Assembly: GCA_018262095.1 (NCBI GenBank)
Contig: JAGTRW010000005.1
Span: 62,001-126,000, forward strand
DNA from: Pseudomonadota bacterium
GTDB taxonomy: Bacteria > Pseudomonadota > Gammaproteobacteria > Burkholderiales > Rhodocyclaceae
DNA: 64,000 nt
Direction: 5' to 3'
Part shown: positions 8,390 to 37,590 of the stretch, piece by piece
Position numbering within the stretch: position 1 is the first letter of the stretch
Layout: each line of letters starts with the position of its first letter
Program-made: the position numbers and the translations under genes
Notes under the pieces: model-generated
Databases searched by the model: none
Told to the model about the DNA's origin: nothing
The model's input: only the letters and a program-made list of their open reading frames with translations

Positions 8390-8466
8390 CAGTATTCGGC
8401 GCGGCTTTTGCGCGCGCAATGGAATGTCGCTGATCAACGCTTCGGCGCTGTCCCGTTTTGTGACAG
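8390..8466 (-). promoter_or_regulatory. Shared-regulon promoter of the ferredoxin-xdhC-mop operon
   Basis: Read on the minus strand: dyad CTGTCACAAAACGGGACAG (8466-8448), 28 bp, TTGCGC (-35, 8419-8414), 17 bp, AATACT within GAATACTG (8397-8390). The same order and spacing recurs at six other operons in the window. The dyad centre lies near -70 from the expected transcription start, a usual place for an upstream activator. The untranslated leader to 8256 is about 125 bases. Apart from this promoter and the second dyad at 8503-8521, I see nothing else in the 8257-8569 gap. Confidence 0.7.
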
Positions 8467-8502
8467 TCGCATCGTTGAGGCGAAGGAAGGGAGGTTGGCA
8501 TG

Positions 8503-8521
8503 CTGTCCCGAAACGGGACAG
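8503..8521. promoter_or_regulatory. Second, perfect regulon dyad upstream of the mop operon
   Basis: CTGTCCCGAAACGGGACAG is a perfect inverted repeat with 8-bp arms and a 3-base centre. Its centre is 55 bp from that of the dyad at 8448-8466, about five helical turns. It matches the regulon consensus but has no -10 of its own at the usual distance on either strand. It may be an auxiliary site for cooperative binding. Confidence 0.6.
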
Positions 8522-8569
8522 TGGGGTCGTTGGCGGCGAGTTATTGTTGACTCGCGGTCGGTGGTTCGG

Positions 8570-8950
8570 CTAGTCGCGCAGCTTTCCGGGGCGAGCGTTG
8601 CGGAAGCTGCGCGGTGCGTGCGAGAAGATCGCCGACCAGGCGACGATGACCCAGAAGAGCGGCACGCGCAGTTCGGGCCAGGCGATCATCGCCGCCACCA
8701 GAACGAGTTTTGCCAGCATCGAGAGGCCGGCGCCTTCGATCAGATGCGCGGGCCGGTGCCAGAGGTCGAGCAGCCAGACCAGCACCCCGCTGATCAGCAC
8801 CGCGACGCCCGCATGCTCGGGCAACGCGGTGGGCGGCGTGCGCAGCAGCGTCGCGGCGAAACTGATCACCGCGATCAGGTGCGCGCCGCGCAACACGACG
8901 CTCGCCCAGCGACGGCCGCGAAAATCGCGAAGCTCGCCGCCGCAGAACAT
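8570..8950 (-). CDS. Small membrane protein coupled to moeA
   Basis: A 126-residue protein with three to four hydrophobic segments (around residues 22-36, 45-62, 68-86 and 92-108) and a basic C-terminal end. I do not recognise a family. Its start at 8950 shares one base with the TGA stop of moeA (TGATG), so translation is probably coupled. The longer frame to 9172 runs inside moeA and is rejected. Context suggests co-expression with molybdenum cofactor synthesis. No function is claimed. Confidence 0.65.
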   Translation of the reverse strand: MFCGGELRDFRGRRWASVVLRGAHLIAVISFAATLLRTPPTALPEHAGVAVLISGVLVWLLDLWHRPAHLIEGAGLSMLAKLVLVAAMIAWPELRVPLFWVIVAWSAIFSHAPRSFRNARPGKLRD

Positions 8951-10205: not shown

Positions 10206-10278
10206 ATTATGCGTTGCCCGGCTGTTTCCTGAAATAGCGGGCAGGCGCACTGCCGTGATCTGTGGCAAAAAGTGACAG
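10206..10278 (-). promoter_or_regulatory. Possible divergent regulon promoter of moeA
   Basis: The dyad at 10260-10278 is followed in the minus direction, after 48 bp, by CATAAT (10211-10206) as a -10. The -35 at 17 bp is poor (TTTCAG). The 48-bp distance equals that seen at the other regulon promoters, which suggests that the same dyad serves both moeA and the nickel importer. Confidence 0.4.
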
Positions 10279-10376: not shown

Positions 10377-11447
10377 ATGCACATCCCCGACGGCTATTTG
10401 AGCCCGGCGACCTGCGCTGCTGCCTACGCGATCACCGTGCCGTTCTGGGTCGTCGCCTTCAAGCGCGTCGAACGCTTGCTGCACACGCGCATGGTGCCGC
10501 TGCTCGCGGTCTTTTCGGCGTTCAGCTTCGTGATCATGATGTTCAACCTGCCGCTGCCGGGCGGTACGACCGGCCATGCGGTCGGCGTTGCGGTGGCGGC
10601 GATCGTGCTCGGGCCGTCGGCGGCGATGGTCGCGATCTCGATCGCGCTGCTGATCCAGGCGGTTTTTTTCGGCGACGGCGGCATCACGACCTATGCCGCC
10701 AACTGCTTCAATATGGCGGTCGCCGGCTCGCTGGTGGCGTACTGGAGCTATGTGCTGATCGCCGGCAAGTGCGCGCTCGATTCGCCGCGGCGCGTCGTCG
10801 CGGCGGCGATCGCCGGCTATCTGGCGCTTAACGTCGCGGCTTTGCTGACGGCGATCGAATTCGGCGTGCAGCCGCTCTTTTTCCACGACGCCGCGGGAAT
10901 GCCCTTGTACGCGCCGTATCCTCTGTCGATTGCGCTTCCGGCGATGATGATCGGACACCTGGCGATCGCCGGGGTCGCCGAGCTGGTGATTTCCGGCGGT
11001 CTGGTCGCCTATCTGCAGCGCGCCAATCCCGAGCTGCTCGCCGGCTCGATGCCGAGCGTTACGAGCGCGCGCGCCGCCGTCGTCAACTCGACGCGCCGGC
11101 TCTGGTGTTGGCTGGCCGGCTTGATGCTGCTCTCTCCGCTCGGCCTCATCGCCGCCGGAACGGCGTGGGGCGAGTGGGGTGGATGGGGCGCCGACGACTT
11201 TGCCGGTGCCCAAATCCGCCAGCAAATGCTGCAGGCGTCGGGCGGCGTCGCTCCGCCCGCAACCGTTCCGAGCGGGCTGGAGCGATTGGCCAGCGTGTGG
11301 CGCGCGCCGATCCCGGACTATGCGCCGGCCTTCCTGCACGACCTTTACGTCGGCTATATCGTATCGGCGGTGATGGGCGCCGGACTGATCGTGCTGCTCT
11401 TGCTGCTGATCGGCAAGTGGGTCGGCCGCCAGTCGGCCGAATTTTGA
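10377..11447 (+). CDS. nikM: CbiM/NikM-type substrate-specificity membrane protein, NikMN fusion
   Basis: Metal-binding membrane component of an ECF-type Ni2+/Co2+ importer. It begins MHIPDGYLSP; the N-terminal Met-His is the metal ligand in the NikM/CbiM family. Residues 1-210 form the CbiM domain with about six membrane segments. Residues 235-350 match the NikN/CbiN-like (PDGLE) extension, with two membrane segments around a periplasmic loop, so the protein is a NikMN fusion of 356 residues. It leads the importer genes, and its TGA overlaps a possible TTG start of the next gene. Nickel rather than cobalt is inferred from the neighbouring hydrogenase and hyp genes; no B12 genes are present. 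Confidence 0.85.
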   Translation: MHIPDGYLSPATCAAAYAITVPFWVVAFKRVERLLHTRMVPLLAVFSAFSFVIMMFNLPLPGGTTGHAVGVAVAAIVLGPSAAMVAISIALLIQAVFFGDGGITTYAANCFNMAVAGSLVAYWSYVLIAGKCALDSPRRVVAAAIAGYLALNVAALLTAIEFGVQPLFFHDAAGMPLYAPYPLSIALPAMMIGHLAIAGVAELVISGGLVAYLQRANPELLAGSMPSVTSARAAVVNSTRRLWCWLAGLMLLSPLGLIAAGTAWGEWGGWGADDFAGAQIRQQMLQASGGVAPPATVPSGLERLASVWRAPIPDYAPAFLHDLYVGYIVSAVMGAGLIVLLLLLIGKWVGRQSAEF

Positions 11448-11455
11448 GCCGGCCG

Positions 11456-12307
11456 GTGCTGAGCGAAGCCATCTCGCTGCCAAAGCCACCGCGCCGGCGC
11501 CATCTGGCGCAGCGGCTGGCACAGGGGCTGCTGCGCGCGATCGATCGGGCGCAGACCGCCGAGTCGCTGGCCGCCGGCGACGGACTGTTGCAGGGACTCG
11601 ATCCGCGCATCAAGCTCTCCGGCGCGCTGGCGCTGATCGTCAGCGCGGTGCTGACGCCTTCGCTGGGCGTCGTGGCCGGCCTCTTTGCGCTGGCCTTGCT
11701 GCTTGCCTGGTGCTCGCGGCTGCTCACTGCCGGCGTCTGCCAGCGATTGTGGCTCAGCGTGCTGCTCTTTTCCGGAACGGTCGCGTTGCCGGCGCTCGTC
11801 GTGGTTCCCGGCCGCGCGCTCTGGCAACTGCCGCTGCTCGGCTGGACGGTCAGCGAACCGGGGCTGCGCAGCGCCGCCTTGCTGATCGCTCGCGCCGAGA
11901 CGTCATCGACGCTGGCGCTGCTGCTCATCGCGTCGACGCCGTGGACGCATGTGCTCAAGGCGATGCGCTGCGTCGGCGCGCCGCGCGTGCTGGTCGCCAT
12001 CCTGGGCATGACGCACCGCTACATCTTCGTGCTGGCGCAGTGCGCGGCGCAATTGTTCGAAGCGCGGCGCAGCCGCATCGTCGCGCCGATGAACGGCGCG
12101 CAGCAACGCGCGCTGGCGACGGCGGCGGCCGGCGTGGTGTTGAGCAAGGCGTTTTGGCTCGCCAACGAAGTGCATCTGGCGATGATTTCGCGCGGTTATC
12201 GCGGCGAAGTGCGCCTGCTCGACGATTTCCACACCCGAGCGCGCGACTGGCTGGCGCTGCTTGCCGCGTTGAGCGTTCCGCTGCTGATCCTTTGGGCCGA
12301 GCGATGA
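11456..12307 (+). CDS. nikQ: CbiQ/NikQ-type energy-coupling transmembrane protein
   Basis: Energy-coupling (T) component of the importer, about 283 residues, with five or so hydrophobic segments between residues 45 and 280. The family motif around LGMTHRYIFVLAQCAAQLFEA contains the coupling region. I chose the GTG at 11456; a TTG at 11444, overlapping the nikM stop, is also possible, and neither has a strong ribosome binding site. The large upstream extension of this frame runs inside nikM and is discarded. The stop overlaps the ATP-binding gene start by 4 bases. Confidence 0.8.
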   Translation: MLSEAISLPKPPRRRHLAQRLAQGLLRAIDRAQTAESLAAGDGLLQGLDPRIKLSGALALIVSAVLTPSLGVVAGLFALALLLAWCSRLLTAGVCQRLWLSVLLFSGTVALPALVVVPGRALWQLPLLGWTVSEPGLRSAALLIARAETSSTLALLLIASTPWTHVLKAMRCVGAPRVLVAILGMTHRYIFVLAQCAAQLFEARRSRIVAPMNGAQQRALATAAAGVVLSKAFWLANEVHLAMISRGYRGEVRLLDDFHTRARDWLALLAALSVPLLILWAER

Positions 12308-13140
12308 ACGATTGCGTCTTCGATTTGAGCCACGTCTCTTTCGCCTACCCGCAGCAACCGGCGCTCGACGATCTGTCGCTGCGCATCCGGCGCGGCGAGC
12401 GCATCGCGTTGCTCGGCGCCAACGGTTCGGGCAAGTCGACGCTGCTGCGCCTGCTCGATGCGCTCTACTTCCCTTGCCGGGGAGAGCTCAGAGCCTTTGG
12501 CGAGGTGATCTCGGAAGCCGCGCTCGCCGACGACGAGGTCAATTTCGCTTTCCGGCGCCGCGTCGGTCTGGTTTTTCAGAACCCCGACGTTCAGCTCTTC
12601 AATCCGACGGTTTTCGACGAGCTGGCTTTCGGCCCGCTGCAGCTCGGCTGGTCGAGCGAAGAAATATTGCGCCGGGTCGAGGCGATGCTGGCGCGCTTTG
12701 CCATTGGCCACCTCAAGCATCGCGCCGCGCATCGCCTGTCAGGCGGCGAGAAAAAACGCGTCGCGCTCGCTTCGGTGCTGGTCATCGACCCCGAGGTGCT
12801 GTTGCTCGACGAACCGACCGCCGCACTCGACCCGCAGAGCCAGGGCGAAGTCGTCCGTTTCCTGAGCGAGAGCCGAGACACCGGGAGAACGATCGTGACG
12901 GCGACGCATGACCTCGAGATCGTCTACGACATCGCCGACTTCGTCTATGTGCTGGCCGACGGCAAGGTGGTGGGCGCCGGCGCGCCGGCAGAAATTCTCG
13001 CCGACCAGGCGCTGCTGCGGCGAACGCACCTGGCGCACGCGCATTGGCATGTGGCTGCCGACGGTTTGGCGCATGCTCATGTGCACGCGCATCGACACCA
13101 GCACCACACGCCGATCGACGGCGACTCTTCCGAGAAGTAG
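12304..13140 (+). CDS. nikO: CbiO/NikO-type ATP-binding protein with histidine-rich tail
   Basis: ATPase of the nickel/cobalt importer, 278 residues. Walker A GANGSGKST is at 38-46, the Q-loop is VFQNPDVQLF, the signature LSGGEKKR lies near 146 and Walker B is VLLLDEPTAALD. The last 40 residues hold 11 histidines in alternating HAH and HVH patterns, which is unusual for the core family and suggests metal buffering or sensing at the cytosolic face. The ATG at 12304 overlaps the nikQ stop by 4 bases. Confidence 0.88.
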   Translation: MNDCVFDLSHVSFAYPQQPALDDLSLRIRRGERIALLGANGSGKSTLLRLLDALYFPCRGELRAFGEVISEAALADDEVNFAFRRRVGLVFQNPDVQLFNPTVFDELAFGPLQLGWSSEEILRRVEAMLARFAIGHLKHRAAHRLSGGEKKRVALASVLVIDPEVLLLDEPTAALDPQSQGEVVRFLSESRDTGRTIVTATHDLEIVYDIADFVYVLADGKVVGAGAPAEILADQALLRRTHLAHAHWHVAADGLAHAHVHAHRHQHHTPIDGDSSEK

Positions 13141-13183: not shown

Positions 13184-13257
13184 CTGTCACGAAATGTTAC
13201 AGTTGGATTAAAAGCCGCTCGCTTGCATCGAAGTCACCGCTCGTCTGTGGAATACTG
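13184..13257 (+). promoter_or_regulatory. Shared-regulon promoter of the FIST-MCP/tupB operon
   Basis: Dyad CTGTCACGAAATGTTACAG (13184-13202), 25 bp, TCGAAG (13228-13233), 17 bp, AATACT within GAATACTG (13250-13257). The leader to the GTG at 13423 is about 160 bases and contains the ferredoxin gene remnant at 13351-13407. The whole leader resembles that of the ferredoxin-aor operon at 16210-16407. Confidence 0.65.
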
Positions 13258-13422: not shown

Positions 13423-15438
13423 GTGAGCCTGTTCAAAAGATTGAGCTCTGCGGCCAAGACCGGCGTGCAGACGCTGGAGACGACTTCGGCGGCGCTCGCT
13501 TCGGCGCTGTCGGGAATCTCCGGGCGGACCACCTTTGTCGTCGGCTATGTTTCGCCGCACCTCGATCTCGATTCGGTGGCGCGCCAATTTTCGCAGCGCT
13601 TTGCCGGCGTCCCGCTGATGTTGTGCTCGACGGCTGGCGAGCTGTGTTCGAGCCAGGGCAGCATCTATTGTCGAACCGGCGAGCAATGGGATCGCATCGT
13701 CTTGCAGTGTTTCGACGATTCGCTCGTCGAACGCGCCCAGGTCGTCGCCGTTGCGCTGGGCTCCGACGATTTGCGGCGCGGCGCTGCAGCGATGCCGCTC
13801 AAGGAGCGCATCGCCAGGATTTCGCGGTCGATCGAATCGCTCAAGGTCGACATCGAAATCGACTACCGCGACACCCTGGCCTGCGTCATGATCGACGGCC
13901 TGTCATTGTCCGAGTCGTTTTTCATGGAAGCCTTGTACGACTCCGGGCGATTTCCCTGTCTATTCGTCGGCGGCTCGGCGGGAGGTAAACTCGATTTTCG
14001 CAACACTTGGATTCACGATGGACAGCGCAAGCTCGAAAACCATGCGGTGGTCGCCTTCCTGAAAATAGCCAAGGGCACTCGCTTCGGCGTCTTCAAGAGC
14101 CAGAATTTCGAGCCGACCCAAATCGGCTTTTCGGTCATTCGCGCCTCGCTGGTCAATCGTTACGTCAGCCACGTCATCGACGATTCGGGCCGGGTCGTTC
14201 CGTTCATCGAGGCCTTGTGCGCGCAACTGCGCTGCTCTTGCGGTGAGCTTGAGCAGCGGCTTGGCGAATACTCTTTCGCCATCCGCGTCGGGCAGGAGCT
14301 TTTCGTCCGCTCCGTTTCGCGCATCGATCTGGCCGAGAGCCGAATCCATTTTTTCTGCGACATCGCGCCGGGCGAAGAGCTGCTGCTGGTCAAGCGGACC
14401 AATTTTGTCGACAGCACGACCCGCGATTATCGCAACTTCATGCAAGGCAAGCCGGGCGCTCCGGTCGCCGGAATCCTCAACGACTGCATCTTGCGGCGCC
14501 TCAACAACGACAAGACGCTTGGCGGCCTCGACAGCGTTTTCGATTGCCGGCAACTGGCTGGTTTCTCGACCTTCGGCGAGATACTGGGACTCAATCTCAA
14601 CCAGACGCTGACCGCGGTATTTTTCTTCAAGGTGCCCGCGGGAACGTCGTTTCACGACAACTATGTCGATCATTTCGTCGCCCATTACAGCCAGTTCAAG
14701 TCGTTCTTTCTGCGCCGCCAGATCGGCAAGTTGTCGGGGCTCGGACGGGTCATGGCGCAGCAGATTTCCGACTACAAGAATCAGCATTTCGACAGCCAGC
14801 TCGATCCGGAGATTTTCGATCAGAGCATGAAAGCGGTTGCCGCGGGGCTCAATGAGCTGGGCGCCGCCCTGCAGAGCGCCGACGCATCGCGAATCGACAC
14901 GGCCAGGCATATGGAAGACTGTTCGCGTGATCTGTACTCGTCGGTCGAAGGGCTGACGGTGCACATCGGCGATCAGGACGCGATCGTTTGCGAGGCGGGC
15001 AACAAGGTCGATGCGCTCGCCGCAGACGCGGTGCACGTCGCCGAGAGCGCGCGCCTGCTGGCCGAGTCGAGTACCCGCATCCGCAGCGTCGTCGAGGTGA
15101 TTCAGCAAATTTCCGACCAGACCAACCTGCTGGCGCTCAATGCCGCGATCGAAGCGGCACGCGCCGGCGAGGCCGGCCGCGGCTTTGCCGTGGTCGCCGA
15201 CGAGGTGCGCAAGCTGGCGGAAAAAACGCGCACCAGCGCCGGCGAGATCGGCAGCGACATTTCTGCGTTGGCCGCCAGTATTGGCGAGGTCGCCAAGAAA
15301 ATCGACCAGCAGTCGGCTGACGTCGAGAGGGTCTCAGGAATGCTGAGCAAGATCGAGGAATTCAGCGTCAAGACGGCGCAAACGGCGGCGCATACCAAAT
15401 CGGTCGCCGATACGCTGCAGCAGCTGACAAAGGTCTGA
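13423..15438 (+). CDS. FIST-domain methyl-accepting chemotaxis protein (cytosolic)
   Basis: A 671-residue soluble chemoreceptor-type protein. Residues 30-230 form a FIST N domain, about 240-400 a FIST C domain, and the C-terminal 200 residues the MCP signalling helices. The hairpin tip is near residues 556-605 ([20 protein letters not shown] and [16 protein letters not shown]). No membrane segment is seen, so it should act in the cytosol with CheA/CheW encoded elsewhere. The start is a GTG at 13423 behind GGGAGAG. It is followed after 18 bp by tupB and is preceded by a regulon promoter, which suggests that it senses a metabolite linked to aldehyde or metal metabolism. The ligand is unknown. 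Confidence 0.88.
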
Positions 15439-15456
15439 GCTTGGTGGCGTCGCCGC

Positions 15457-16152
15457 ATGTTTGAAACCCTGCGTCAAGCACTGTCGCTGCTCGCCCATCT
15501 GGATAATCAGGTGCTGGCCATCGTCTGGCTGTCGTTCAAGGTCAGCCTTGCCGCGGTGACGCTGGCGGCGCTGCTCGGTCTGCCGCTCGGTGCGCTGGTT
15601 GCGGTCGCTTCGTTTCCCGGGCGCGGCGCGCTGACGGTCGTGCTCAACGGCATGATGGGCTTGCCTTCGGTCGTCGTCGGCGTCGTCGTCTATCTATTTC
15701 TTTCGCGCTCCGGGCCGTTCGGCGACCTCGGCCTGCTCTACTCGGCGCCGGCCATGATCGCGGCGCAGACGGTGCTGGTCACGCCGTTGATGGCCGCGCT
15801 GACGCGGCAGATCGTCGAGGACGCCTGGCGCGAGTATGCCAACGAGTTCAACTCGATGCGCTTCTCGCTGCGCCACAGTGTCGTCGAGTTGCTCTATGAC
15901 TGCCGTTTTTCGCTGGTTGTCGCGGTGCTGGCCGGCATGGGCCGCTCGTTGTCGGAAGTCGGCGCGGTGATGATCGTCGGCGGCAACATCGAGGGCTTCA
16001 CGCGCGTGATGACCACCGCCATCGCGCTCGAAACCGCCAAGGGCGACCTGCCGCTGTCGCTGGCGCTGGGCGTGGTGTTGCTGACGGTGGTGTTGCTGCT
16101 CAACAGCGGGGCCTATCTGATGCGGCAATGGGCAATGCGCAAATTCGGCTAG
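15457..16152 (+). CDS. tupB: Tungstate ABC transporter permease TupB
   Basis: A 231-residue inner-membrane permease with about five membrane segments and the coupling-loop region EYANEFNSMRFSLRHSVVEL. The sequence MGLPSVVVGVVVYLFLSRSG near residue 67 is typical of TupB and distinguishes it from ModB. It lies 18 bp after the FIST-MCP gene. Its partners tupC and tupA are 7-8 kb away on the other strand at the end of the hydrogenase operon, so the transporter is encoded in two operons of the same putative regulon. It serves the tungsten enzyme that follows. Confidence 0.88.
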   Translation: MFETLRQALSLLAHLDNQVLAIVWLSFKVSLAAVTLAALLGLPLGALVAVASFPGRGALTVVLNGMMGLPSVVVGVVVYLFLSRSGPFGDLGLLYSAPAMIAAQTVLVTPLMAALTRQIVEDAWREYANEFNSMRFSLRHSVVELLYDCRFSLVVAVLAGMGRSLSEVGAVMIVGGNIEGFTRVMTTAIALETAKGDLPLSLALGVVLLTVVLLLNSGAYLMRQWAMRKFG

Positions 16153-16209: not shown

Positions 16210-16284
16210 CTGTCACAAAATGTGACAGCGGCAACAAAAATCGCCAGCTTCTCCTTGAAGCGTCTCTTCGTACGTCGAATACTG
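16210..16284 (+). promoter_or_regulatory. Shared-regulon promoter of the ferredoxin-aor operon
   Basis: Best example of the architecture: perfect dyad CTGTCACAAAATGTGACAG (16210-16228), 26 bp, TTGAAG (16255-16260), 17 bp, AATACT within GAATACTG (16277-16284). The leader to the ATG at 16408 is about 118 bases. No further gene is seen in the gap 16153-16407. Confidence 0.75.
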
Positions 16285-16407: not shown

Positions 16408-16599
16408 ATGGCTTACAAAATCATCCCCGACCTGTGCAACGGCTGCGCCGCCTGCGAATCCGAGTGCCCGAACCGCGCCATCAGCCATGTCGGCAAGGAT
16501 TACACGATCGATCCGGGCAAGTGCCAGGAGTGCGAGGGCGTCTATGACAGCCCGATGTGCGCCCAGCTGTGCAACACCGACGCCTGCGTTCCGGCCTGA
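16408..16599 (+). CDS. 63-residue 2[4Fe-4S]-type ferredoxin, paralogue B (aor partner)
   Basis: A small ferredoxin with CNGCAACESECP near residue 11 and the second-site cysteines CQECEG, C50, C54 and C59. The start at 16408 has an AAGGAG site. It is 51/63 identical to the protein at 8065-8256. It lies 71 bp upstream of the aldehyde ferredoxin oxidoreductase gene on the same transcript and is its probable electron acceptor. In the Aromatoleum-type enzyme, as I recall, the first subunit is a larger multi-cluster protein followed by a separate FAD subunit; here the ferredoxin is short and no FAD subunit is encoded nearby. Confidence 0.9.
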   Translation: MAYKIIPDLCNGCAACESECPNRAISHVGKDYTIDPGKCQECEGVYDSPMCAQLCNTDACVPA

Positions 16600-16670
16600 A
16601 GCCGCCGATCAGCATTGCGCAACCGAAACTGCGCGGGCAAGCGTTAGCTGCAACCAATCAGGAGTGTGTC

Positions 16671-18401
16671 ATGGATAAGATCGTACGCATCAATATGGCC
16701 GAGCTCACCAGCAGCGTCGAGCCCGTTCCGGCGGAATGGGTTGGGCTCGGCGGACGAGCGCTGACCTCGACCATCGTCGCCAAGGAAGTTCCGCCCACCT
16801 GCCACGCGCTGGGGCTGAGCAACAAGCTGGTGTTCGCCCCTGGCTTGTTGTCCGGCACCTCGGCGGCCAACTCGGGTCGCCTTTCGGCGGGCGCCAAGAG
16901 TCCGCTGACCGGCGGCATCAAGGAATGCAACGCCGGCGGCACCGCCGCAAAAATGTTCGCCAAGCTCGGCATCAAGGCGCTGATCATCGAATGGATTCCG
17001 CGCGAGGACAAGTGGTACAGCGTGCATGTGACCAAGGACGCGATCACCATCGCCGAAGAGTCCGAACTGATCGGCAAGGGCAACTACTGCCTGATCAACA
17101 GTGTTCAGGCACGCTACGGCAAGCCGGTCGGCGTCATGTCGGTCGGCCCGGTCGGCGAAATGAAAATGCTTTCGGCCAATATTTCGGTCGCCGATCCCGA
17201 GTCGCGAGTCCGTAGTCTGGGCCGTGGCGGGCTCGGCGCGGTGATGGGTTCGAAGAAGATCAAGTACATTTCGATCGACGATTCCGGAACGCCGCCGGTG
17301 ATGCCCAAGGACGCCGTCAAGTTCAAGGGCGCCGCGCGCATCTTCGCCAAGACGCTGCTCGACCACCCGGTCAGCGGCCAGGGGTTGCCGACCTACGGCA
17401 CCAACGTGCTGGTCAACATCCTCAACGAAGCCGGCGGTCTGCCGACACGCAATTTCACCAGCGGCCAGTTCGCCGGGCACGACAAGATTTCGGGCGAGAC
17501 GATGCACGCCACTATCGTCGCGCGCGGCGGAACGCCGACGCACGGCTGCCATGCCGGCTGTCAGATTCAGTGCTCGCAGGTCTACAACGACAAGAACGGC
17601 CAATACGTCACCTCGGGTTTCGAGTATGAAACGATCTGGGGCTTGGGCGCCAACTGCTGCATCGACGATCTCGACGACATCGCCGAAGCCGACCACATCA
17701 TGGACGACTTAGGCTGCGACAGCATCGAAACGGCGGTGATGTTCGGCGTCGCGATGGAAGCCGGGGTACTGCCTTTCGGCGACAGCAAGGAAATGCTGCG
17801 GCTGTTGCGCGACGAGATCGGCAAGGGTACGCCGCTCGGCCGCGTGCTCGGCGGCGGCGCCGCGCAGCTCGGCCGGATCTATGGCGTGACGCGCGTTCCG
17901 GTGGTCAAGAACCAGGGCATCCCGGCTTACGATCCGCGCTCGGTCAAGGGAATCGGCGTCACCTATGCGATGGGAACGATGGGCGCCGATCACACCTCGG
18001 GTTACGCCATCGCCACCAACATCCTCAACGTCGGCGGTCACGTCGATCCTCTGTCGAAGGTCGGTCAGGTCGAGCTCGCGCGCAACCTGCAGATCGCCAC
18101 GGCAGCCATCGATTCGACCGGAATGTGTCTGTTCATCGCCTTCCCGGCGCTCGACATCCCGGAGTGTCTGATTTCGCTGATCGACATGATCAACGCGCGC
18201 TTTGGTATCAACCTGACCGGCGACGACGTCACCGCGCTGGGCAAGTCGGTGCTCAAGATCGAGCATCAGTTCAACCTCGACGCCGGTCTGTCCAAGGAGC
18301 ACGATCGCCTTCCCGAGTTCTTCAGCAAGGAGTTGCTGCCGCCGCACAACGCGATCTGGGATTTCACCCCCGCCGAACTCGACGCCTTCTGGAACTTCTG
18401 A
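16671..18401 (+). CDS. aor: Tungsten-dependent aldehyde ferredoxin oxidoreductase, large subunit
   Basis: Catalytic subunit with a bis-pterin tungsten site and one [4Fe-4S] cluster; it interconverts aldehydes and carboxylic acids using a low-potential carrier. The 576-residue product has the family length. Cluster cysteines are C293, C297 and C301 (GCHAGCQIQC) and C486 (DSTGMC). Other AOR features include the N-terminal AEWVGLGGRALTSTIVAKE and DDLGCDSIETA near 345. The ATG at 16671 has a GGAG site and lies in a longer frame that is discarded. Tungsten rather than molybdenum is inferred from the family and the tup genes under the same promoter type. It is closer to the bacterial AorB type than to archaeal enzymes, from general recall. 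Confidence 0.92.
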   Translation: MDKIVRINMAELTSSVEPVPAEWVGLGGRALTSTIVAKEVPPTCHALGLSNKLVFAPGLLSGTSAANSGRLSAGAKSPLTGGIKECNAGGTAAKMFAKLGIKALIIEWIPREDKWYSVHVTKDAITIAEESELIGKGNYCLINSVQARYGKPVGVMSVGPVGEMKMLSANISVADPESRVRSLGRGGLGAVMGSKKIKYISIDDSGTPPVMPKDAVKFKGAARIFAKTLLDHPVSGQGLPTYGTNVLVNILNEAGGLPTRNFTSGQFAGHDKISGETMHATIVARGGTPTHGCHAGCQIQCSQVYNDKNGQYVTSGFEYETIWGLGANCCIDDLDDIAEADHIMDDLGCDSIETAVMFGVAMEAGVLPFGDSKEMLRLLRDEIGKGTPLGRVLGGGAAQLGRIYGVTRVPVVKNQGIPAYDPRSVKGIGVTYAMGTMGADHTSGYAIATNILNVGGHVDPLSKVGQVELARNLQIATAAIDSTGMCLFIAFPALDIPECLISLIDMINARFGINLTGDDVTALGKSVLKIEHQFNLDAGLSKEHDRLPEFFSKELLPPHNAIWDFTPAELDAFWNF

Positions 18402-18414
18402 TCGCCGATCCGGG

Positions 18415-18441
18415 CCCGGCGTCGGCGTCTGCCGCGCCGGG
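18415..18441 (+). terminator. Hairpin between aor and the moaD-like gene
   Basis: Stem CCCGGCG (18415-18421) with CGCCGGG (18435-18441), a 13-base loop, followed by TTTGTT. It resembles a weak rho-independent terminator or an attenuator that would lower expression of the small downstream gene relative to aor. Confidence 0.4.
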
Positions 18442-18478
18442 TTTGTTCACCGACCTGCGTCCGGACAAGGTGTTGCGA

Positions 18479-24218: not shown

Positions 24219-24231
24219 GGTCGCTGGCAGC

Positions 24232-26404: not shown

Positions 26405-26422
26405 GAGCGTTCCTGATTGGGT

Positions 26423-26875: not shown

Positions 26876-26888
26876 GGCATTTTCCTGT

Positions 26889-27845
26889 TCAGGCCAGTGC
26901 GACGCAGGCCAGGGAAAGAACCGCCAAAGCCAGCGGCCATTTGAGGAAGAAACGGAAAGCCTGGTCGATGCGCAACCGACCGCAGGAAACGCGAACCACC
27001 GAGACGCCGATCAGCATCAGCGCGATCAGTTTTACGAGGTGCACCGCGAGGCCAGCGATTCCGTCGGGAGCGATCGGGTAGAAGAGCGCGACGCCGAGGC
27101 CGAGGACGACGACCGCCTTCAAGGCCGACATGATCTTGAAGAGGCCGAGCGCCGGGCCCGAGTATTCGAGCAGCGGCCCTTCGAGCACCTCGGTTTCGGC
27201 CTCGGGAATGTCGAACGGAATGATTCCCAGGTTGGCCGGGTAGAAGGCCAGGAAGGCGGCCAGCGCCGGCCACAGCAGCGGGTCGAAGAGAAAGGCGCCA
27301 TGCGTCTGCTGATAGGCGATGATCTCGGGCAGCGAAAAGCTCACCAAGCCGCCCTGGCCGAGCCCGGTGCGCATCGCGACGGCGGCGACGACGAGCACCA
27401 GCGGTCCTTCGTAGGCCAGCATCATGGCCATTTCGCGCGAAAAGCCGATGGCCCCGAAAGGCGATCCCGACGCCGATCCGGCGATCATCAGCACGACCGC
27501 CGGGACGGTCAGCAGATAGAGCAGTACCAGCAGGTCGCCGAGCAGCGGGTCGGGCGTATAGAAGCCGGCGATCGGCACCAGCGCGGCGGCCAGCGCCATC
27601 GCCACGGCGCCGATCAGCGGCGCGCCGAGAAAGACCGGCTGACACGCGGTATCGGGAACCATGGTGCGCTTCTTGGCGAGCTTGACGAGGTCGTAGAACG
27701 GCTGCGCCAGCGGTGGCCCGACGCGACCCTGGAGGCGAGCCGCGAGGCGCCGGTCGAGTCCCTTGAGCGAGAGGCCGAGCGCCAGCGCGAACAGGCCGCC
27801 GGGGAAGATCAGCATGGCAAGTGGAGTGTAGAGCGATTCGATCAT
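26889..27845 (-). CDS. NuoH/HycD-like membrane subunit
   Basis: A 318-residue integral membrane subunit with about eight hydrophobic segments. The NuoH motif GPPLAQPFYDLVKLAKK lies near residue 42, and EAETEVLEGPLLEYSG near residue 215 holds the acidic loop at the quinone-site equivalent. It anchors the soluble arm to the membrane. The ATG at 27845 is chosen; the frame upstream lies inside the fused antiporter gene. Confidence 0.88.
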   Translation of the reverse strand: MIESLYTPLAMLIFPGGLFALALGLSLKGLDRRLAARLQGRVGPPLAQPFYDLVKLAKKRTMVPDTACQPVFLGAPLIGAVAMALAAALVPIAGFYTPDPLLGDLLVLLYLLTVPAVVLMIAGSASGSPFGAIGFSREMAMMLAYEGPLVLVVAAVAMRTGLGQGGLVSFSLPEIIAYQQTHGAFLFDPLLWPALAAFLAFYPANLGIIPFDIPEAETEVLEGPLLEYSGPALGLFKIMSALKAVVVLGLGVALFYPIAPDGIAGLAVHLVKLIALMLIGVSVVRVSCGRLRIDQAFRFFLKWPLALAVLSLACVALA

Positions 27846-27858
27846 GATAATTCTCTCT

Positions 27859-30800
27859 TTAAGCCGGCTTGATTTGAAGGTGGTCGATCGGGCTCGCGTC
27901 GTCCTCATCCTCGTCGCTGTAGCCGGTATCGTGCTTGGCGTGCAGCAGGCCGCGAATGGCGGCGTCGGGCGATTCGAAGAGGTTCGAGGCATTGACGTTG
28001 AGCTGCGCCGAGGCGATGTCGGCAACGCCGCACAGATGGATCGGCGAGCGGATCACCGCCGCGCCGCGGCCCTGGCGCAGGTAGAGCGCGGCGATCAAAC
28101 CGCCGGCCAGCAGCAGCAGCGAGAGCAGCGCCGGATGGAAGCCGCCGGTTCCCGGCAGCACGCCGGTCCAGCTCATTTCGATCGGCGTCATGCCGAGTTC
28201 TTGCTGGATGGCGGCGATCGGCACCAGCAGCAGGCCGGGCAGCAGGCCGACGGCGATACAGCCGGCGACCAGGATGCCCATCGGCACCAGCATGATCGCC
28301 GGCGCCTCCTGAGCATGCTCGGCGGCTTCGCCCGGCGAACCCATGAACGCGGCGTGCGCGAACTTGAGCACCGCGGCCAGCGTGAACAGGCTGGCGATCA
28401 GCGCGAAGATGCCGAGGATGTAGTGACCCGAGCCGAAAGCGGCCTGGTAGATCAGCCACTTCGAGGCGAAGCCGTTGAGCGGCGGAATCCCTGCGAGCGA
28501 CAGACCGGCGAACAGGAAGATGGCGAAGGTGAGCGGCATCTTGCGGCCGAGGCCGCCGAGCTCATCGAGCGTCGTCGCGTGGCTGGCCACCATGATGCAG
28601 CCGGCGCAGAGGAACAGCAGGTCCTTGAGCATCAGGTGATTGACGAAGTGCATCAGGCCGCCGGCGATGCCGAGCGGCGAGCCCTCGCTCATGCCGATTC
28701 CCAGCGCCATGGTGATGTAGCCGAGCTGGCAGACGGTGCTGTAGATCAGCAGGCGCTTGATTCCGGTCTGCACGACCGCCATGGCGCCGGCGTAGAGCAG
28801 CGTGATGCCGCCGATCAGCGCGACGGCGTACATCAACAGCGGCATCCCAGAGACGACGCCGAGACGATCGAACAGCGCTGCGCCGCCGAGCAGCGCGAAC
28901 AGCTTGAGCACGCCGTAGGGACCGCTCTTGAGCAGCACCGCCGAGATGTAACCCGAAACCGGCGTCGGCGCGGTCGCCGGGTGCATCTGGTAGTCGATGC
29001 GGATCGGCAGCATCGCCGCCTTCATCAGCATGCCCAGAACGATCAGTACCAACGCCGCGCCGAGCCAGGGGGTAGCCATTTCGGGCGCGGACTGCGCGAT
29101 CGCGGCGAAGTCGAAGCTGCCGCTCGCCGTGCCGAGCAGGGCAATGCCGAGGAACATGAAGCAGGCGCCGACGGTGTTGAACATGAAGTACTTCATCGCT
29201 TCGCGACGCGCGTCGCCGGTCTCTTCATGGACCAGCGCGACGTAGAGCGCCCAGCTGCTCATCAGCTCCCAGAAGGCGAAGAAGTTGAAGAAGTCGTGGC
29301 TGCCGGCCATTCCGATCAGGCCGGCGATGAGCAGCGCGAAGGCGGCATAGAAGCGTGGTTGGGCGTGGCCGTGCGCCAGGTAGCCGGTGGCGTAGGCCAG
29401 GTTGAGCGTGCCGACGCCGGCAACCAGCAACGCGAAAGCGAAGGACAGCGAATCGTAGCGCTCGGGTTGCGCCAGTACGGCGACGAAGGCGGCGAGTGGA
29501 ACGGCGATCGCCAGGCGCGCCGCAGCGGTCGCCGATCTCTTGCCGGCCAGCCAGATGATCGGTGCGCCGAGCGCGGCGATCAACGCTGCGGCCGGCCAGT
29601 CGAGTCTCAGGTCGGGAAGCAGCACGGGCGGCAAGCCGGCGCGACTGGCGACGAGATCGCCGATGGCGCGCACGGCGTCGAGCTGGACGCCCGGGGCGAC
29701 GCCGCCGAAGAGGATGGCGGCGGCGAGCACGGCGAGCGCGATCAGCATCGACGCCGGCGCTTCTCTGACCGCCGACCCATGGTACGGCTGGAAGAAGAGC
29801 ACGCGAACGACGCGCAGGTAGTAGAAGGCGGCGACGACGCTGCCGATGAGCAGCAGCGCGGCGACGTCGACGCGGCCGGCGTCGGCGGCCGCGGTGATCA
29901 TCAGGAACTTGCTGATGAAGCCCGAGAACGGCGGCAGTCCCATGATCGAAATGGTCGCCAGCGCGTAGCAGCCGGCCGAAAATGGCATCACCTTGCCGAG
30001 CCCGGCGAGCTCCTTGATCTGGCGCTTGCCGCTTTGCAGGATGAAGGCGCCGGCGGCGAAGAAGAGCAGCGTCTTCATCACCGCGTGGTTGCTCACGTGC
30101 AGCAGCGCGGCCGAGGTCGCGAGTGCGCTACCCAGGCCGAGAACGGCGGCGATCTCGCCGATCTGCGCCAGCGTCGAGTAAGCCAGCATGCGCTTGATCT
30201 CGGTCTGCAGCAGCGCCATCACTTCGCCATAGATCAGCGTCGCGCAGCCGAGGATGACGAGCACCATGGGCAGGTCGATTCCGGCGCCGGCGAAGCGCGC
30301 CAGAGCGGTCGCGCCGAAGACCACGTAGAGCACCTTGACCATACCGAAGATGCCGGCCTTGGTCAGGATCCCCGAGAGCGGCGCCGAGATCGACGACGGC
30401 GCTTCCGGGTGGGCGAGCGGCAGCCACGAATGCAGCGGCACCAGGCCGGCCTTGACGGCGAAGCCGGCGAAGAAACACAGCGCGGCGAGCAGGCCGACGC
30501 CGGGCGCGACTTCGCCGATCTTTTCGGCGACGGTCGCGAACTCGAAACTGCCGATCTGCGCATGCACCAGCAGAATGCCGAAGTGCATGATGTAGGCACC
30601 GGCGGCGCACATCACGAAGTAGACCAGACCGGCTTTGAGCGCTTTCGGCGTCTGCTCATGGACGACCAGCAGGTACGAGCTCCAGGTCATCAGCTCCCAG
30701 AAAACGTAGAAGTTGCCGAATTCGTGGGCGGTCGCGAGACCGAGCAAGGAACCGATCAGCAGGAAGACGAAGAAGGTGTAGCGGTTGGTCTGCTCGGCAT

Positions 30801-31707
30801 GCTTCATGTAGCCGCGCGAATAGACGACGACGAGCAGCCCGATGGTGACGAAGATCAGCGCGAAGAAACGCGACAGCGGATCGAGCCCGGGTTCCTGCAG
30901 CGTCAGCACCACCGTCGCGGCGGCGATGAGCAGCGCGGCGATGTCGCGCCAGCGCGTCGATACGCGGCCGATGGCGTAGAGCGCAAAGGCGCCAAGATAT
31001 GGCACCAGCATCAGCGTCGACCACGGCGACTCGAACTGCGGAACCTGCGTCACATCGAGCACGCCGGCGAGTGCCGCGGCGTGATGCAGGAAGGGCTCGG
31101 GCCAGATGCCCATATAGACGGTCAGCGCGCTCAGTACGGCGATCGGCGCGATCAGCCACGACGGCGCGGCGCGCAGTTCGCAGGGGCCGCTCGCCGGTTC
31201 GAGGCAGACGCGCTGGATGACGCGGATGTAGTAGACGGCGGCGATGATGGTCGCCAGCGTGCCGACCGCGGCGAGCAGCCACTGGCCCTGTTCGATCGCC
31301 GCGTAGAGCACCAGGAACTTGCTGAACGATCCCTTGAACGGCGACAAGCCCATCACCGAGAACATGCCGAAGCCGAACAGCGTGGCGGCGATCGGCATGC
31401 GCTGGCCGCTGCCGGCGAGGTCGTCGAGCGACGCCGAGCCGCTGCGGCGGATCAGCCACCAGGCGCTCAGCACGACCAGGCCGCGCATCACCAGCTGGTA
31501 GCCCAGGTGCATCAGCGCGCCGGTGTCGCCCGCCGCACCGCCGAGGCCGACGCCGAGCAGCAGGTAACCGACCTCGGCGAGCGTCGAGATGGCAATCAGT
31601 CGCGGCAGATTGCGTAGCGAGAGCAGGGCGAGGATTTCGCCGAGCAGCAGAATGATGGCGCCGAGCCAGGCCGTGATGGCGGGGTCGAAGCTTGTTGAGG
31701 CGAGCAT
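27859..31707 (-). CDS. Giant fused antiporter-like membrane subunit (1282 residues)
   Basis: Membrane arm of the hydrogenase made of several NuoL/M/N-type modules in one chain. Residues 1 to about 215 match the C-terminal half of such a module (MGLSPFKGSFSKFLVLYAA, then YYIRVIQRV). About 230-650 is a full module with FYVFWELMTWSSYLLV and GFAVKAGLVPLHSWLP, which hold the pump Glu and Lys. About 690-1130 is a second full module (FNFFAFWELMSSWALYV and GMLMKAAMLPIRI). Residues 1190-1282 form a soluble acidic tail (YSDEDEDDASP). E. coli Hyf has three separate proteins for this (HyfB, D and F). The frame is unbroken and the codon use is uniform. It is the first gene of the operon and likely drives H+ or Na+ translocation. 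Confidence 0.88.
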   Translation of the reverse strand: MLASTSFDPAITAWLGAIILLLGEILALLSLRNLPRLIAISTLAEVGYLLLGVGLGGAAGDTGALMHLGYQLVMRGLVVLSAWWLIRRSGSASLDDLAGSGQRMPIAATLFGFGMFSVMGLSPFKGSFSKFLVLYAAIEQGQWLLAAVGTLATIIAAVYYIRVIQRVCLEPASGPCELRAAPSWLIAPIAVLSALTVYMGIWPEPFLHHAAALAGVLDVTQVPQFESPWSTLMLVPYLGAFALYAIGRVSTRWRDIAALLIAAATVVLTLQEPGLDPLSRFFALIFVTIGLLVVVYSRGYMKHAEQTNRYTFFVFLLIGSLLGLATAHEFGNFYVFWELMTWSSYLLVVHEQTPKALKAGLVYFVMCAAGAYIMHFGILLVHAQIGSFEFATVAEKIGEVAPGVGLLAALCFFAGFAVKAGLVPLHSWLPLAHPEAPSSISAPLSGILTKAGIFGMVKVLYVVFGATALARFAGAGIDLPMVLVILGCATLIYGEVMALLQTEIKRMLAYSTLAQIGEIAAVLGLGSALATSAALLHVSNHAVMKTLLFFAAGAFILQSGKRQIKELAGLGKVMPFSAGCYALATISIMGLPPFSGFISKFLMITAAADAGRVDVAALLLIGSVVAAFYYLRVVRVLFFQPYHGSAVREAPASMLIALAVLAAAILFGGVAPGVQLDAVRAIGDLVASRAGLPPVLLPDLRLDWPAAALIAALGAPIIWLAGKRSATAAARLAIAVPLAAFVAVLAQPERYDSLSFAFALLVAGVGTLNLAYATGYLAHGHAQPRFYAAFALLIAGLIGMAGSHDFFNFFAFWELMSSWALYVALVHEETGDARREAMKYFMFNTVGACFMFLGIALLGTASGSFDFAAIAQSAPEMATPWLGAALVLIVLGMLMKAAMLPIRIDYQMHPATAPTPVSGYISAVLLKSGPYGVLKLFALLGGAALFDRLGVVSGMPLLMYAVALIGGITLLYAGAMAVVQTGIKRLLIYSTVCQLGYITMALGIGMSEGSPLGIAGGLMHFVNHLMLKDLLFLCAGCIMVASHATTLDELGGLGRKMPLTFAIFLFAGLSLAGIPPLNGFASKWLIYQAAFGSGHYILGIFALIASLFTLAAVLKFAHAAFMGSPGEAAEHAQEAPAIMLVPMGILVAGCIAVGLLPGLLLVPIAAIQQELGMTPIEMSWTGVLPGTGGFHPALLSLLLLAGGLIAALYLRQGRGAAVIRSPIHLCGVADIASAQLNVNASNLFESPDAAIRGLLHAKHDTGYSDEDEDDASPIDHLQIKPA

Positions 31708-31781: not shown

Positions 31782-31856
31782 TAGTATCGAAGCTCGAAGA
31801 TGCTGCGGCAATGCAAACTGGCCGATTGGAAAATTGATTGTGTCAATTTGTGACAG
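31782..31856 (-). promoter_or_regulatory. Shared-regulon promoter of the hydrogenase-tupCA operon
   Basis: On the minus strand: dyad CTGTCACAAATTGACACAA (31856-31838), 26 bp, TTGCCG (31811-31806), 17 bp, GATACT within CGATACTA (31789-31782). The leader to the ATG at 31707 is about 68 bases. Spacing agrees with the other sites. Confidence 0.6.
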
Positions 31857-35739: not shown

Positions 35740-36568
35740 GTGCCGTGGCACCGGTGCGAATGCGGCGCAGGCCGAGATTGACCAGCACCGTGAGCAGGAA
35801 GAGGATCAGACCGCAGGCGAACAGCGAATTGTAGGCGGCACTCTGGCTGTCGGTGGCGACCACCAGCGCGATATGCGCGGTCAGCGTGCGCATCGGATCG
35901 AGCAGCGAGAGCGGCGGCTGCGGCGCGTTGCCGGCGAGCATCAGCGGCACCAGCGTATCGCCGAGCGCGCGCCCGAAACCCAGGATCGCCGCCATCACCA
36001 GGCCGCGCGACGACAGCGGCAGCGTCAGCTGCAGCATTTCCTGAACGCGGGTCAATCCGAGCGCCGCTGCCGTCAGCCTGATCTCGCTCTCAAGCCGCTG
36101 GAACTGGTTGTCGAGCAGCAGCACGATGGTCGGCAGCGCCAGCACGGCCAAGGTCAGCAGCGCCGCCAGCCAGCACAAACCCGATCCGGAGGAAGCGCCG
36201 CGAATCAGCGGCACCAGCGAAAAAGCGGCAACCAGTCCATAGACCACGGTCGGCACGCTGCTCATCAGACGGACCGCGACCAGCAGCGGTCGCGCCGCCC
36301 AGTCGGGGCCGAGTCCGTGCGCGAAACAGCAGACGCCGAGCGCCAGCGGATAAGCGACCAGCATCGACGAGACGGCCAGCGCCAACGAGGCGGCAATCAT
36401 CGGCAAGATCCCGAACTCGTTCTGCAGCGGCCGCCAGTGCCACGAAAACAAGGCGGCAAGCTGGTCGCCCTGAAACAGCGGCAAGGAAAAATAGACCAGA
36501 AAAGCGAGGATCGCCAGCACCGCCAGCGCCGAGACGGCGGCGGCGCAATAGAGCAAGCGCGCAGCCAT
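35732..36568 (-). CDS. pstC: PstC-like phosphate ABC transporter permease
   Basis: A 278-residue permease with six hydrophobic segments; the coupling loop is in RLTAAALGLTRVQEMLQLTLP near residue 170. The start at 36568 lies one base after the pstS stop, so the genes are transcribed together. Length and order (S, C, A, B) fit a complete Pst-type importer. Confidence 0.82.
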   Translation of the reverse strand: MAARLLYCAAAVSALAVLAILAFLVYFSLPLFQGDQLAALFSWHWRPLQNEFGILPMIAASLALAVSSMLVAYPLALGVCCFAHGLGPDWAARPLLVAVRLMSSVPTVVYGLVAAFSLVPLIRGASSGSGLCWLAALLTLAVLALPTIVLLLDNQFQRLESEIRLTAAALGLTRVQEMLQLTLPLSSRGLVMAAILGFGRALGDTLVPLMLAGNAPQPPLSLLDPMRTLTAHIALVVATDSQSAAYNSLFACGLILFLLTVLVNLGLRRIRTGATAHG

Positions 36569-36569
36569 T

Positions 36570-37412
36570 CTAGTGCAGCGGCAGATACCCAGCGGCGGCC
36601 GTCATCCGTATTCCCTCGGGCCCCATGATGTAGTTGATGAAGGCCGCGCAGAGGCCCTGCGGCGTCCCTTTGGTGTTCATGTAGAGCTTGCGGACGATGG
36701 GGTACTTGCCGGAACGCGCGTTCTCCTGCGTCGGCGCGACGCCGTCGAGCGTCGGCGCCTTGATCGTCTCGTCGAGGTGGCCGATCGAGACGTAACCGAT
36801 GGCGTCACTATCGTCGGCGACGGCCGACTTCATCGCGCCGTTGGAGGCAACGACATTGGCCGTTTCGACGATGGCGCCTTTCTTCAGCAGCTTCTCCCAG
36901 AACACCTCGCGCGTTCCGCTCGCCTCGTCGCGCGTGTACAGGTGAATCGCCGCATCGCGCCCGCCGACGCCCTTCCAGTTGCTGATCTTGCCGGCGAAAA
37001 TCTGCTGCACCTGCTCGGCAGTGAGGTTGGCGACCGAATTCTTCGGGCTGACCGCGACGGCGACGCCGTCGAGCGCGAAGGCAAACGATTTGAGCCCGTA
37101 CTTGGCGACTTCGTCGTCGCTCAACGGCCGGCCGGTGTTGCCGATGTCGACGAGTCCCTCGCCGACCTTCTGCACGCCGACTCCGGAACCGCCGGCGGCG
37201 ACGCTGATGCGGATTTCCGGGTTGGCCTGCATGATGCGTTTGGCGGCGTCCTTCATCACCGGGATGTGCGCCGTTCCGCCGGCGATATCGATCTTGCCTT
37301 TCTTGCCGGCGAAAGCGTCGAGCTCGCCAGCGGCAGCGGCGCCGGCGAGCAGCGCCGAACAGATCAGCGCCAGCGTCAGGCAGCGCGTTCCATGGGTGAT
37401 AAACCGTTTCAT
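36570..37412 (-). CDS. pstS: PstS-like phosphate-binding protein
   Basis: A 280-residue periplasmic binding protein with signal peptide MKRFITHGTRCLTLALICSA, cleaved after GAAAA. Motifs AAGGSGVGVQKVGEG and LYTRDEASGTREVFWE are typical of PstS. The ATG at 37412 is chosen; 8 residues upstream in the frame are poor. No Pho box is obvious. It is divergent from moaA, and I find no regulon -10 at the expected distance on this strand. Another oxyanion cannot be excluded by sequence. Confidence 0.82.
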   Translation of the reverse strand: MKRFITHGTRCLTLALICSALLAGAAAAGELDAFAGKKGKIDIAGGTAHIPVMKDAAKRIMQANPEIRISVAAGGSGVGVQKVGEGLVDIGNTGRPLSDDEVAKYGLKSFAFALDGVAVAVSPKNSVANLTAEQVQQIFAGKISNWKGVGGRDAAIHLYTRDEASGTREVFWEKLLKKGAIVETANVVASNGAMKSAVADDSDAIGYVSIGHLDETIKAPTLDGVAPTQENARSGKYPIVRKLYMNTKGTPQGLCAAFINYIMGPEGIRMTAAAGYLPLH

Positions 37413-37515
37413 CGCCTCGTCCTGTGAAATAAGCAAAGGCCGCCACTATACGTCAGCCCTTGGGCCATTGAGAAATGCAGCGCCCCCGGCGCGCCAAGCT
37501 GCCCGACCATCGCGC

Positions 37516-37590
37516 CTGTCTCGAAATGACACAGCAACTTGGCCGGATCGCCCGATCCCATTGCGCGCAGCGTTCGCGCCGTCAATACTG
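37516..37590 (+). promoter_or_regulatory. Shared-regulon promoter of the moaA-hyp operon
   Basis: Dyad CTGTCTCGAAATGACACAG (37516-37534), 26 bp, TTGCGC (37561-37566), 17 bp, AATACT within CAATACTG (37583-37590). I located this dyad by predicting its place from the -10 sequence, an internal test of the pattern. The leader to the ATG at 37649 is about 52 bases. Confidence 0.68.

Follow-up and report, generated by a model that had tools for sequence, protein, structure and literature searches.

A putative dyad operator before the aldehyde-oxidation, hydrogenase and metal-supply operons of a Rhodocyclaceae bacterium and its candidate AcoR-like regulator with a lost GAFTGA loop

Operons, dyads and promoters of the window

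The window analysed here is a stretch of 64,000 nucleotides (positions 62,001 to 126,000 of contig JAGTRW010000005.1, assembly GCA_018262095.1) from a Rhodocyclaceae bacterium. A preliminary description of it had noted a 19-bp dyad near the consensus CTGTCNC-N5-GNGACAG in front of seven operons, among them those for a tungsten-type aldehyde ferredoxin oxidoreductase (AOR), a molybdopterin aldehyde oxidoreductase (MOP) and a membrane-bound hydrogenase. The genes behind the dyad promoters do form a coherent metabolic set, as was then proposed, comprising aldehyde oxidation, nickel and tungsten uptake, hydrogenase and cofactor functions (Table 1). Below, this genome is called G000 and its contig C20; other genomes, contigs and fetched loci carry numbers beginning with G, C and L.

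All eight dyads that had been described are present in the window, including the one at 37516, which had been placed from its -10 element; it proved to be real, with one mismatch to the consensus and a rank among the top nine in the matrix scan. The dyads are odd-centred with a 5-bp middle, and a CRP/FNR site, which is even-centred, was rejected on this geometry, in line with the earlier view.

The loosely matched consensus was uninformative. The window contains 40 places with at most three mismatches against 39.8 expected, and a genome-wide search with at most two mismatches gave 195 places against 216 for the reversed pattern. Perfect matches occur at only three places in the whole 4.8-Mb genome, all of them inside the window. 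A symmetrised weight matrix was built from 15 sites (seven from the window and eight from relatives), and the scan of the window with it gave eight matches scoring at least 19.9 and none between 11 and 19. Nine places in C20:1-126000 reach a matrix score of at least 18, whereas 100 dinucleotide shuffles gave 0.04 such places on average and never more than 1. With a second matrix, built solely from eight sites of other species, the nine best places in these 126 kb were the eight window dyads and a further site, C20:28892, all scoring at least 16.5; the tenth place scored 10.9. Loose consensus matches are not enriched, but the matrix for the full motif is sharp, and the signal resides in the full motif. 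The five places with one mismatch outside the window scored 0.1-14.9 and had no -10 element close by. The two further sites outside the window are C20:28892 and C42:15550-15622.

The idea of one promoter architecture common to the seven operons was supported. A -10-like hexamer stands at a near-fixed distance from each of the seven promoter dyads. The hexamer [A/G]ATAC[T/A] starts 48-51 bp past the dyad at all seven promoter dyads of the window, those at 8448 and 31838 being read on the minus strand toward the ferredoxin/MOP operon and the hydrogenase operon, respectively. The dyad at 8503 is a second, upstream copy without its own -10 element, and a dyad pair of equal spacing is found in Propionivibrio soli (L085 8054/8109). 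The claim that a TTGNNN element stands 17 bp before the -10 in most promoters holds at 8448, 10260, 16210, 31838 and 37516 and fails at 13184 (TCGAAG). The promoter at 20944 has AATACA in place of AATACT.

For the counting of such promoters, a composite was defined as a dyad, a spacer and an ATACT -10 element. The pattern dyad-N47-54-ATACT occurs eight times in the own genome (seven times on C20 and once at C42:15550-15622) and the reversed pattern not at all. Over all fetched loci, 54 distinct composites were found, including those of L048 and L198, which are probably due to chance and were kept in the counts. The distance from the dyad to the -10 is 48 or 49 bp in 42 of the 54, with a whole range of 45-51 bp. 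The trinucleotide TTG, which was no part of the search pattern, is present with a 17-bp spacer in 29 of the 54 composites and with a 16-bp spacer in eight more. Judged by sequence, the -35 and -10 elements linked to the dyad resemble those of an ordinary sigma70-type promoter, and the centre of the dyad falls near -70.

The dyad and its -10 element were also seen upstream of AOR in all eight other betaproteobacterial loci read: those of P. soli and P. dicarboxylicus and of metagenome-assembled genomes (MAGs) of Rhodoferax, Nitrosomonadales, Sideroxyarcus and, in three cases, Rhodocyclales/Rhodocyclaceae. TTG is missing in two of them (L022 and L057). This count is restricted to betaproteobacterial loci, and several Desulfuromonadales loci fall outside it. 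In three of the latter (L025 8336, L048 8460 and L056 8304), dyads similar to CTGTTCC-N5-GGAACAG lie approximately 1.5-1.7 kb upstream of AOR; they are possibly sites of distant intact regulators.

A ParB/KorB-like protein (19347-20216, plus strand) is encoded directly after aorA-AOR-moaD and matches Pfam ParB_N (2.9e-21) and KorB (2.5e-5). KorB binds a 13-bp odd-centred dyad. It is nevertheless extremely improbable that this protein binds the dyads, as the 17 distinct AOR loci listed (of 47 searched) contain no match to it, although eight of them have AOR-upstream dyads. The gene was rejected as the regulator because it is an orphan whose linkage is not conserved in these loci of relatives.

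Beyond the window, G422, G499, G507 and G563 each have dyads or composites in front of moaA/hypB and of the hydrogenase operon; these also stand before aorA-AOR in G499, G563 and G422, and before ferredoxin/XdhC/MOP genes in G507 and G422. In P. soli they precede AOR and the ferredoxin/XdhC/MOP operon. The own genome's sole composite off C20 (C42:15550-15622; L103, L240) lies upstream of a Cache-type chemoreceptor gene, and the dyad at C20:28892 has an HbpS-like gene on one flank and molybdenum-cofactor genes on the other. In G404, a dyad precedes a FIST-domain gene on a separate contig, as the dyad at 13184 precedes the FIST chemoreceptor gene, and a chemoreceptor-like protein may for this reason be a standing member of the regulon. 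We read the regulon as aldehyde oxidation by tungsten and molybdenum enzymes with ferredoxin feeding a group-4-type hydrogenase, the direction of flow and the inducer being presumed.

Several neighbouring features were noted in passing. The FIST-MCP fusion (13423-15438) and L125 have a below-cut-off match to the nitric-oxide sensor NosP. Behind the 20944 dyad lie a short open reading frame from 21062, a hypothetical gene (21347-21790) and an AroE-like gene (21885-22703). In G507 (L233 9387-12834), the position of the AOR operon is occupied by a ferredoxin, a protein read as flavodiiron-like and the regulator, with no AOR. A P. soli protein encoded between moaD and TupA (L016 12169-12864) resembles, by reading, a transposase of the ISL3 type in its N-terminal portion.

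Table 1. Dyads, promoter elements and genes of the window; mismatches are counted to CTGTCNC-N5-GNGACAG
Feature	Positions	Strand	Remarks
Ferredoxin, XdhC-like, MOP and FAD/FeS oxidoreductase operon with small genes	572..8256	-	Gene calls; NCBIfam NF045668, NF045663; XdhC name from reading of the sequence
FAD/FeS oxidoreductase	1997-4306	-	Within the 572..8256 operon
MOP	4364-7126	-	Within the 572..8256 operon
-10 AATACT	8391..8396	-	TTGCGC at 8414-8419, 17-bp spacer
Operator dyad, ferredoxin/XdhC/MOP operon	8448..8466	-	0 mismatches, matrix score 25.2
Second upstream dyad	8503..8521	-	0 mismatches; 55 bp from 8448 dyad
Operator dyad of cbiMQO	10260..10278	+	1 mismatch; -10 at 10327-10332, TTGAAG 10304-10309
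CbiM/CbiQ/CbiO-type nickel or cobalt uptake	10377..13140	+	Pfam CbiM 6.8e-57, ABC_tran; CbiQ by reading
Operator dyad, FIST-chemoreceptor/TupB operon	13184..13202	+	1 mismatch; -10 at 13251-13256
FIST-chemoreceptor/TupB operon	13423..16152	+	
FIST-MCP fusion chemoreceptor	13423-15438	+	Pfam FIST, FIST_C, MCPsignal
ABC permease read as TupB	15457-16152	+	Name by reading; no Pfam match
Operator dyad of AOR operon	16210..16228	+	0 mismatches; TTGAAG 16255-16260, AATACT 16278-16283
AOR operon: AorA-like ferredoxin, AOR, MoaD-like protein	16408..18730	+	Pfam AFOR_N/AFOR_C, ThiS
Tungsten-type AOR	16671-18401	+	Pfam AFOR_N/AFOR_C
Weakest promoter dyad	20944..20962	+	2 mismatches; -10-like AATACA 21013-21018
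Membrane-bound hydrogenase operon, then ABC ATPase and binding protein (TupC/TupA-like)	22711..31707	-	Pfam Complex1_49kDa, NiFeSe_Hases, PBP_like_2, ABC_tran; NCBIfam; hydrogenase read as group-4-type
Operator dyad of hydrogenase operon	31838..31856	-	2 mismatches; GATACT 31783-31788, TTGCCG 31806-31811; hypA divergent
Operator dyad of moaA/hyp operon	37516..37534	+	1 mismatch; TTGCGC 37561-37566, AATACT 37584-37589
MoaA, HypB, GlpC-like, HypF, HypC, HypD, HypE	37649..45924	+	Names from sequence; GlpC-like from NCBIfam

A candidate regulator and its co-occurrence with the dyad

As had been remarked, no regulator gene is obvious in the window; the best candidate lies 34 kb to its left on the same contig, at C20:26180-28084. 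Its AcoR/DhaR/AorR-like product contains a GAF domain (Pfam 4.2e-16), an AAA+ domain (Sigma54_activat, 1.3e-45) and a Fis-type helix-turn-helix (HTH) domain (HTH_8, 3.1e-11). By comparison, the pattern TGTNNC-N5-GNNACA of the dyad corresponds to the geometry of enhancer-binding proteins with a Fis-type HTH, which the NtrC site shares. The sites of AorR and of 14 other groups have TGT and ACA at a spacer of 10-12 bp (PMC6615313).

The AcoR-like gene is present in several AOR loci. Among 19 genomes of the same genus, AOR is found in G000, G403 and G404, and an orthologue of the regulator in these three and in G405; a further genome of the genus, G537, has both. All ten betaproteobacterial genomes found via AOR have the orthologue, the seven others, reached via their loci, having an AOR-type copy that is 49-77% identical. 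In the family scan, which took in 199 genomes, 52 proved to have an orthologue with an E value of 1e-150 or better; the regulator matches of G420 and G421 are identical to those of G578 and G563. A search for AOR in 29 orthologue genomes showed an AOR more than 80% identical in five (G537, G499, G578, G592 and G563) and one 40% identical in G511, the other 23 being without AOR. The regulator gene lies within 10 kb of AOR on the same contig in G403, G537, G578, G499, G592, G417 and G423, and 24 kb from it in G404. In 11 of the 18 genomes that have only copies with an intact GAFTGA loop (see below), dyads scoring at least 15 occur in the regulator locus, and in seven of the 18 a dyad and a -10 element form the regulator's own promoter.

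These results bear out the suggestion that a single activator is likely, since the AcoR-like regulator tracks the dyad across genomes, activation being its probable mode. Meanwhile, the LysR-type or ModE-like regulator that had been proposed found no support, because the dyad has the TGT/ACA geometry of proteins with a Fis-type HTH and the gene that tracks it is AcoR-like; LysR genes were not surveyed. It is quite unlikely that another regulator (LysR, ModE or else) binds the dyad and that the AcoR-like gene is merely a neighbour. In favour of another regulator, T-N11-A is formally part of the dyad, strong dyads that lack a -10 element occur in two genomes with no AcoR-like gene (G408, 25.7; G411, 18.4), and a composite at the AcoR-like gene is missing from 11 of the 18 intact-only genomes; against it, the dyad is found along with the AcoR-like gene in genomes that have no AOR, the gene and AOR co-occur, and the Fis-type HTH suits the TGT/ACA geometry of the AorR-group sites (PMC6615313).

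In two regulator matches, an in-frame TGA was considered as a selenocysteine codon and rejected: the TGA of L131 is a normal stop overrun by the alignment, and that of L147, which has an open frame of 640 amino acids, is probably likewise a normal stop.

Loop state and promoter type

The own copy of the regulator reads LFGYAPTLC----REGA where relatives have GAFTGA. Its Walker A and Walker B motifs are kept, and the protein is otherwise complete. The loop is deleted or rewritten in the copies of G000, G403, G404, G537, G499 (C75), G578 (C205), G592 (C378), G422, G563, G507 and G531, and altered in those of G418 (GAFSSA), G419 (C44, EALSGA), G423 (C221, STLSDA) and G417 (C14, GAFSGA); Walker B reads LNEI in the last two. 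Of the 24 family genomes that were checked and have no close AOR, all except G507 and G531 carry an intact loop (GAF[TS]GA or GAY[ST]GA; 22 genomes), and an intact loop is also found in the paralogues G578 C292, G417 C12, G419 C126 and G423 C103. Outside this check stand the paralogue on C314 of G592 and two further copies in G531, its second and third. In the regulator tree, which omits the two rows with a stop in the aligned stretch (L131 and L147), the 11 deleted or rewritten copies form one clade (support 99/98) and the four substituted copies a separate one (100/100), both nested among intact copies.

For the detection of sigma54 promoters, one strict pattern was used, namely a dyad with TGGCAC-N6-TGC within 68-97 bp. 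Such sigma54 composites occurred in nine genomes, of which G423, G499 and G507 were set aside as chance because their composite lies on a contig without a regulator copy, although the reversed control gave none. In the other six (G405, G556, G582, G187, G520 and, at the C292 paralogue, G578), the dyad and the -24/-12 element adjoin the regulator gene, and all six copies are intact (GAF[TS]GA or GAYSGA). The sigma54 promoter of G405 faces an aldehyde dehydrogenase gene. Sigma70-type composites numbered 28 in 12 genomes with a defective loop, and a further 13 were counted in G000, G403 and G404; two of the 28 precede paralogues (G592 C314 and the intact G419 C126). The 18 intact-only genomes have eight, of which seven are the regulator's own promoter with TATACT and the eighth (G556) is unlinked. 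The reversed-pattern controls gave five matches in 30 genomes and one in four genomes (G403). Across genomes, the type of promoter follows the state of the loop.

That the loop-less protein still drives sigma54 through another contact appears highly unlikely. Walker A is kept, as is Walker B in the own copy, and the sigma54 gene is present in all seven genomes tested; however, the strict pattern gave no sigma54 composite in G000, G403 and G404 or beside the 15 loop-defective copies, and -35/-10 elements stand at a fixed spacing instead. Repression by the same regulator, bound to the dyads and hindering the polymerase from upstream, is unlikely too. Loop-less relatives such as TyrR can repress, and position alone is no proof of activation. 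On the other side, the dyad ends approximately 25 bp upstream of the -35 and, at spacings of 45-51 bp, covers neither the -35 nor the -10, and the regulon -10s are mostly AATACT or GATACT, compared with the better TATACT at the own promoters of the seven intact regulators.

We therefore favour, with a probability of about 0.8 and on sequence evidence, the reading that the AcoR/DhaR/AorR-like protein is the regulator of the dyad operator, a former sigma54 activator now acting at the sigma70 promoters of an aldehyde-to-hydrogen regulon. The product of C20:26180-28084 would bind the dyad approximately 70 bp upstream of the transcription starts and, presumably upon an aldehyde or alcohol signal, activate sigma70-type promoters (TTG, 17 bp, [A/G]ATACT). 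The regulon would make a module leading from aldehyde to acid and from ferredoxin to hydrogen, with the tungsten-type AOR, the molybdenum-type MOP and the hydrogenase, and would also order the supply of nickel, tungsten and molybdenum cofactor as well as chemoreceptors. The ancestor would have been a sigma54 enhancer-binding protein that worked through this dyad, a state apparently still present in relatives that lack AOR. Deletion or degradation of the sigma54-touching GAFTGA loop would then have taken place in the AOR lineage, with the regulon on sigma70 promoters. As the regulator would have lost its sigma54-working part and would now act at ordinary promoters, an entire gene network seems to have passed from sigma54 to sigma70 transcription.

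A number of findings weigh against this reading. In the own genome, the regulator lies approximately 50 kb from AOR with no dyad before its gene, and in G563, G418, G419 and G422 it is on a different contig from AOR. Among the 18 intact-only genomes, seven have no matrix dyad by the regulator and 13 have no sigma54 composite under the strict pattern. The strong dyad of G408 is found in a genome with no regulator match, the regulon of G507 is present without AOR, and in G531 (84% complete) the loop is degraded although the genome has no AOR and no composites. The substituted-clade copy of G417 reads GAFSGA, a variant described as still working with sigma54 (PMC6615313). Six Geobacter/Pelobacter-type AOR genomes have distant relatives (38-40% by tblastn) with an intact GAFTGA, which shows that the switch is no requirement for AOR itself. 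Of the 52 family genomes with a match, the loop check left 22 aside, and a structure model of the P. dicarboxylicus copy (predicted local distance difference test, pLDDT, 51.6) was too poor and was not used. In our judgement, these points do not overturn the reading of the AcoR-like protein as a sigma70-acting activator, of which we infer the binding, the activation and the use of sigma70.

A more tentative proposal, to which we give somewhat less than even odds, is that two activator lineages lost sigma54 contact alongside control of the tungsten-AOR regulon, and that the regulon promoters were copied from the ancestral activator's own sigma70 module and are not converted sigma54 promoters. 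In the own-promoter modules of intact regulators, the distance from the dyad to the -10 is 47-48 bp, nearly the same as the 48-49 bp that prevail in the regulon. If this is true, a self-regulation module seeded a regulon-wide change of sigma factor.

Moves of regulons between sigma factors are for the most part reconstructed in hindsight. In the present case, both the ancestral state (intact loop, dyad and a sigma54 promoter at the G405 aldehyde dehydrogenase gene) and the derived one (broken loop, same dyad and sigma70 promoters of the aldehyde-to-hydrogen regulon) appear to be preserved in related genomes, with two origins available for comparison. A testable regulator is also named for tungsten enzymes, hydrogenase and metal supply in betaproteobacteria, and two chemoreceptor types are tied in.

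Comparison with known regulators

For aor-moaD of Clostridiales, a sigma54 enhancer-binding protein with TGT/ACA sites, AorR, has been predicted (PMC6615313). The present candidate is likewise an enhancer-binding protein assigned to an aor-moaD operon, the two being compared by description and not by orthology. AorR is linked to sigma54 promoters, whereas the present system is loop-less with sigma70-like promoters, and its regulon adds MOP, hydrogenase, metal uptake and chemoreceptors.

Sigma70-dependent proteins with a defective GAFTGA include TyrR and DhaR of E. coli and HupR of R. capsulatus (PMC3162934), as well as NtrC of R. capsulatus and Caulobacter and VspR of V. cholerae (PMC10274813). 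By their description, they share with the candidate the AAA+/Fis-HTH build, the deleted or altered GAFTGA and the sigma70 promoters; VpsR is among the PDB matches of the candidate. They differ in their signals and targets, and in the present case intact orthologues with sigma54 elements at like dyads are available.

AcoR-type activators have the same domain order of GAF, AAA+ and HTH_8, and the intact relative in G405 adjoins an aldehyde dehydrogenase gene. Classical AcoR keeps GAFTGA and uses sigma54, whereas the loop is lost here.

Among the open-access titles and abstract openings listed, no loop-less AcoR/AorR regulon and no regulator of betaproteobacterial AOR was found, and a search of PMC4641369 for aldehyde and AOR terms gave no match. 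Given the published descriptions of loop-less sigma70-acting proteins and of the sigma54-dependent AorR of Clostridia, this kind of regulator is already known; what is new to us is the presence of both states side by side.

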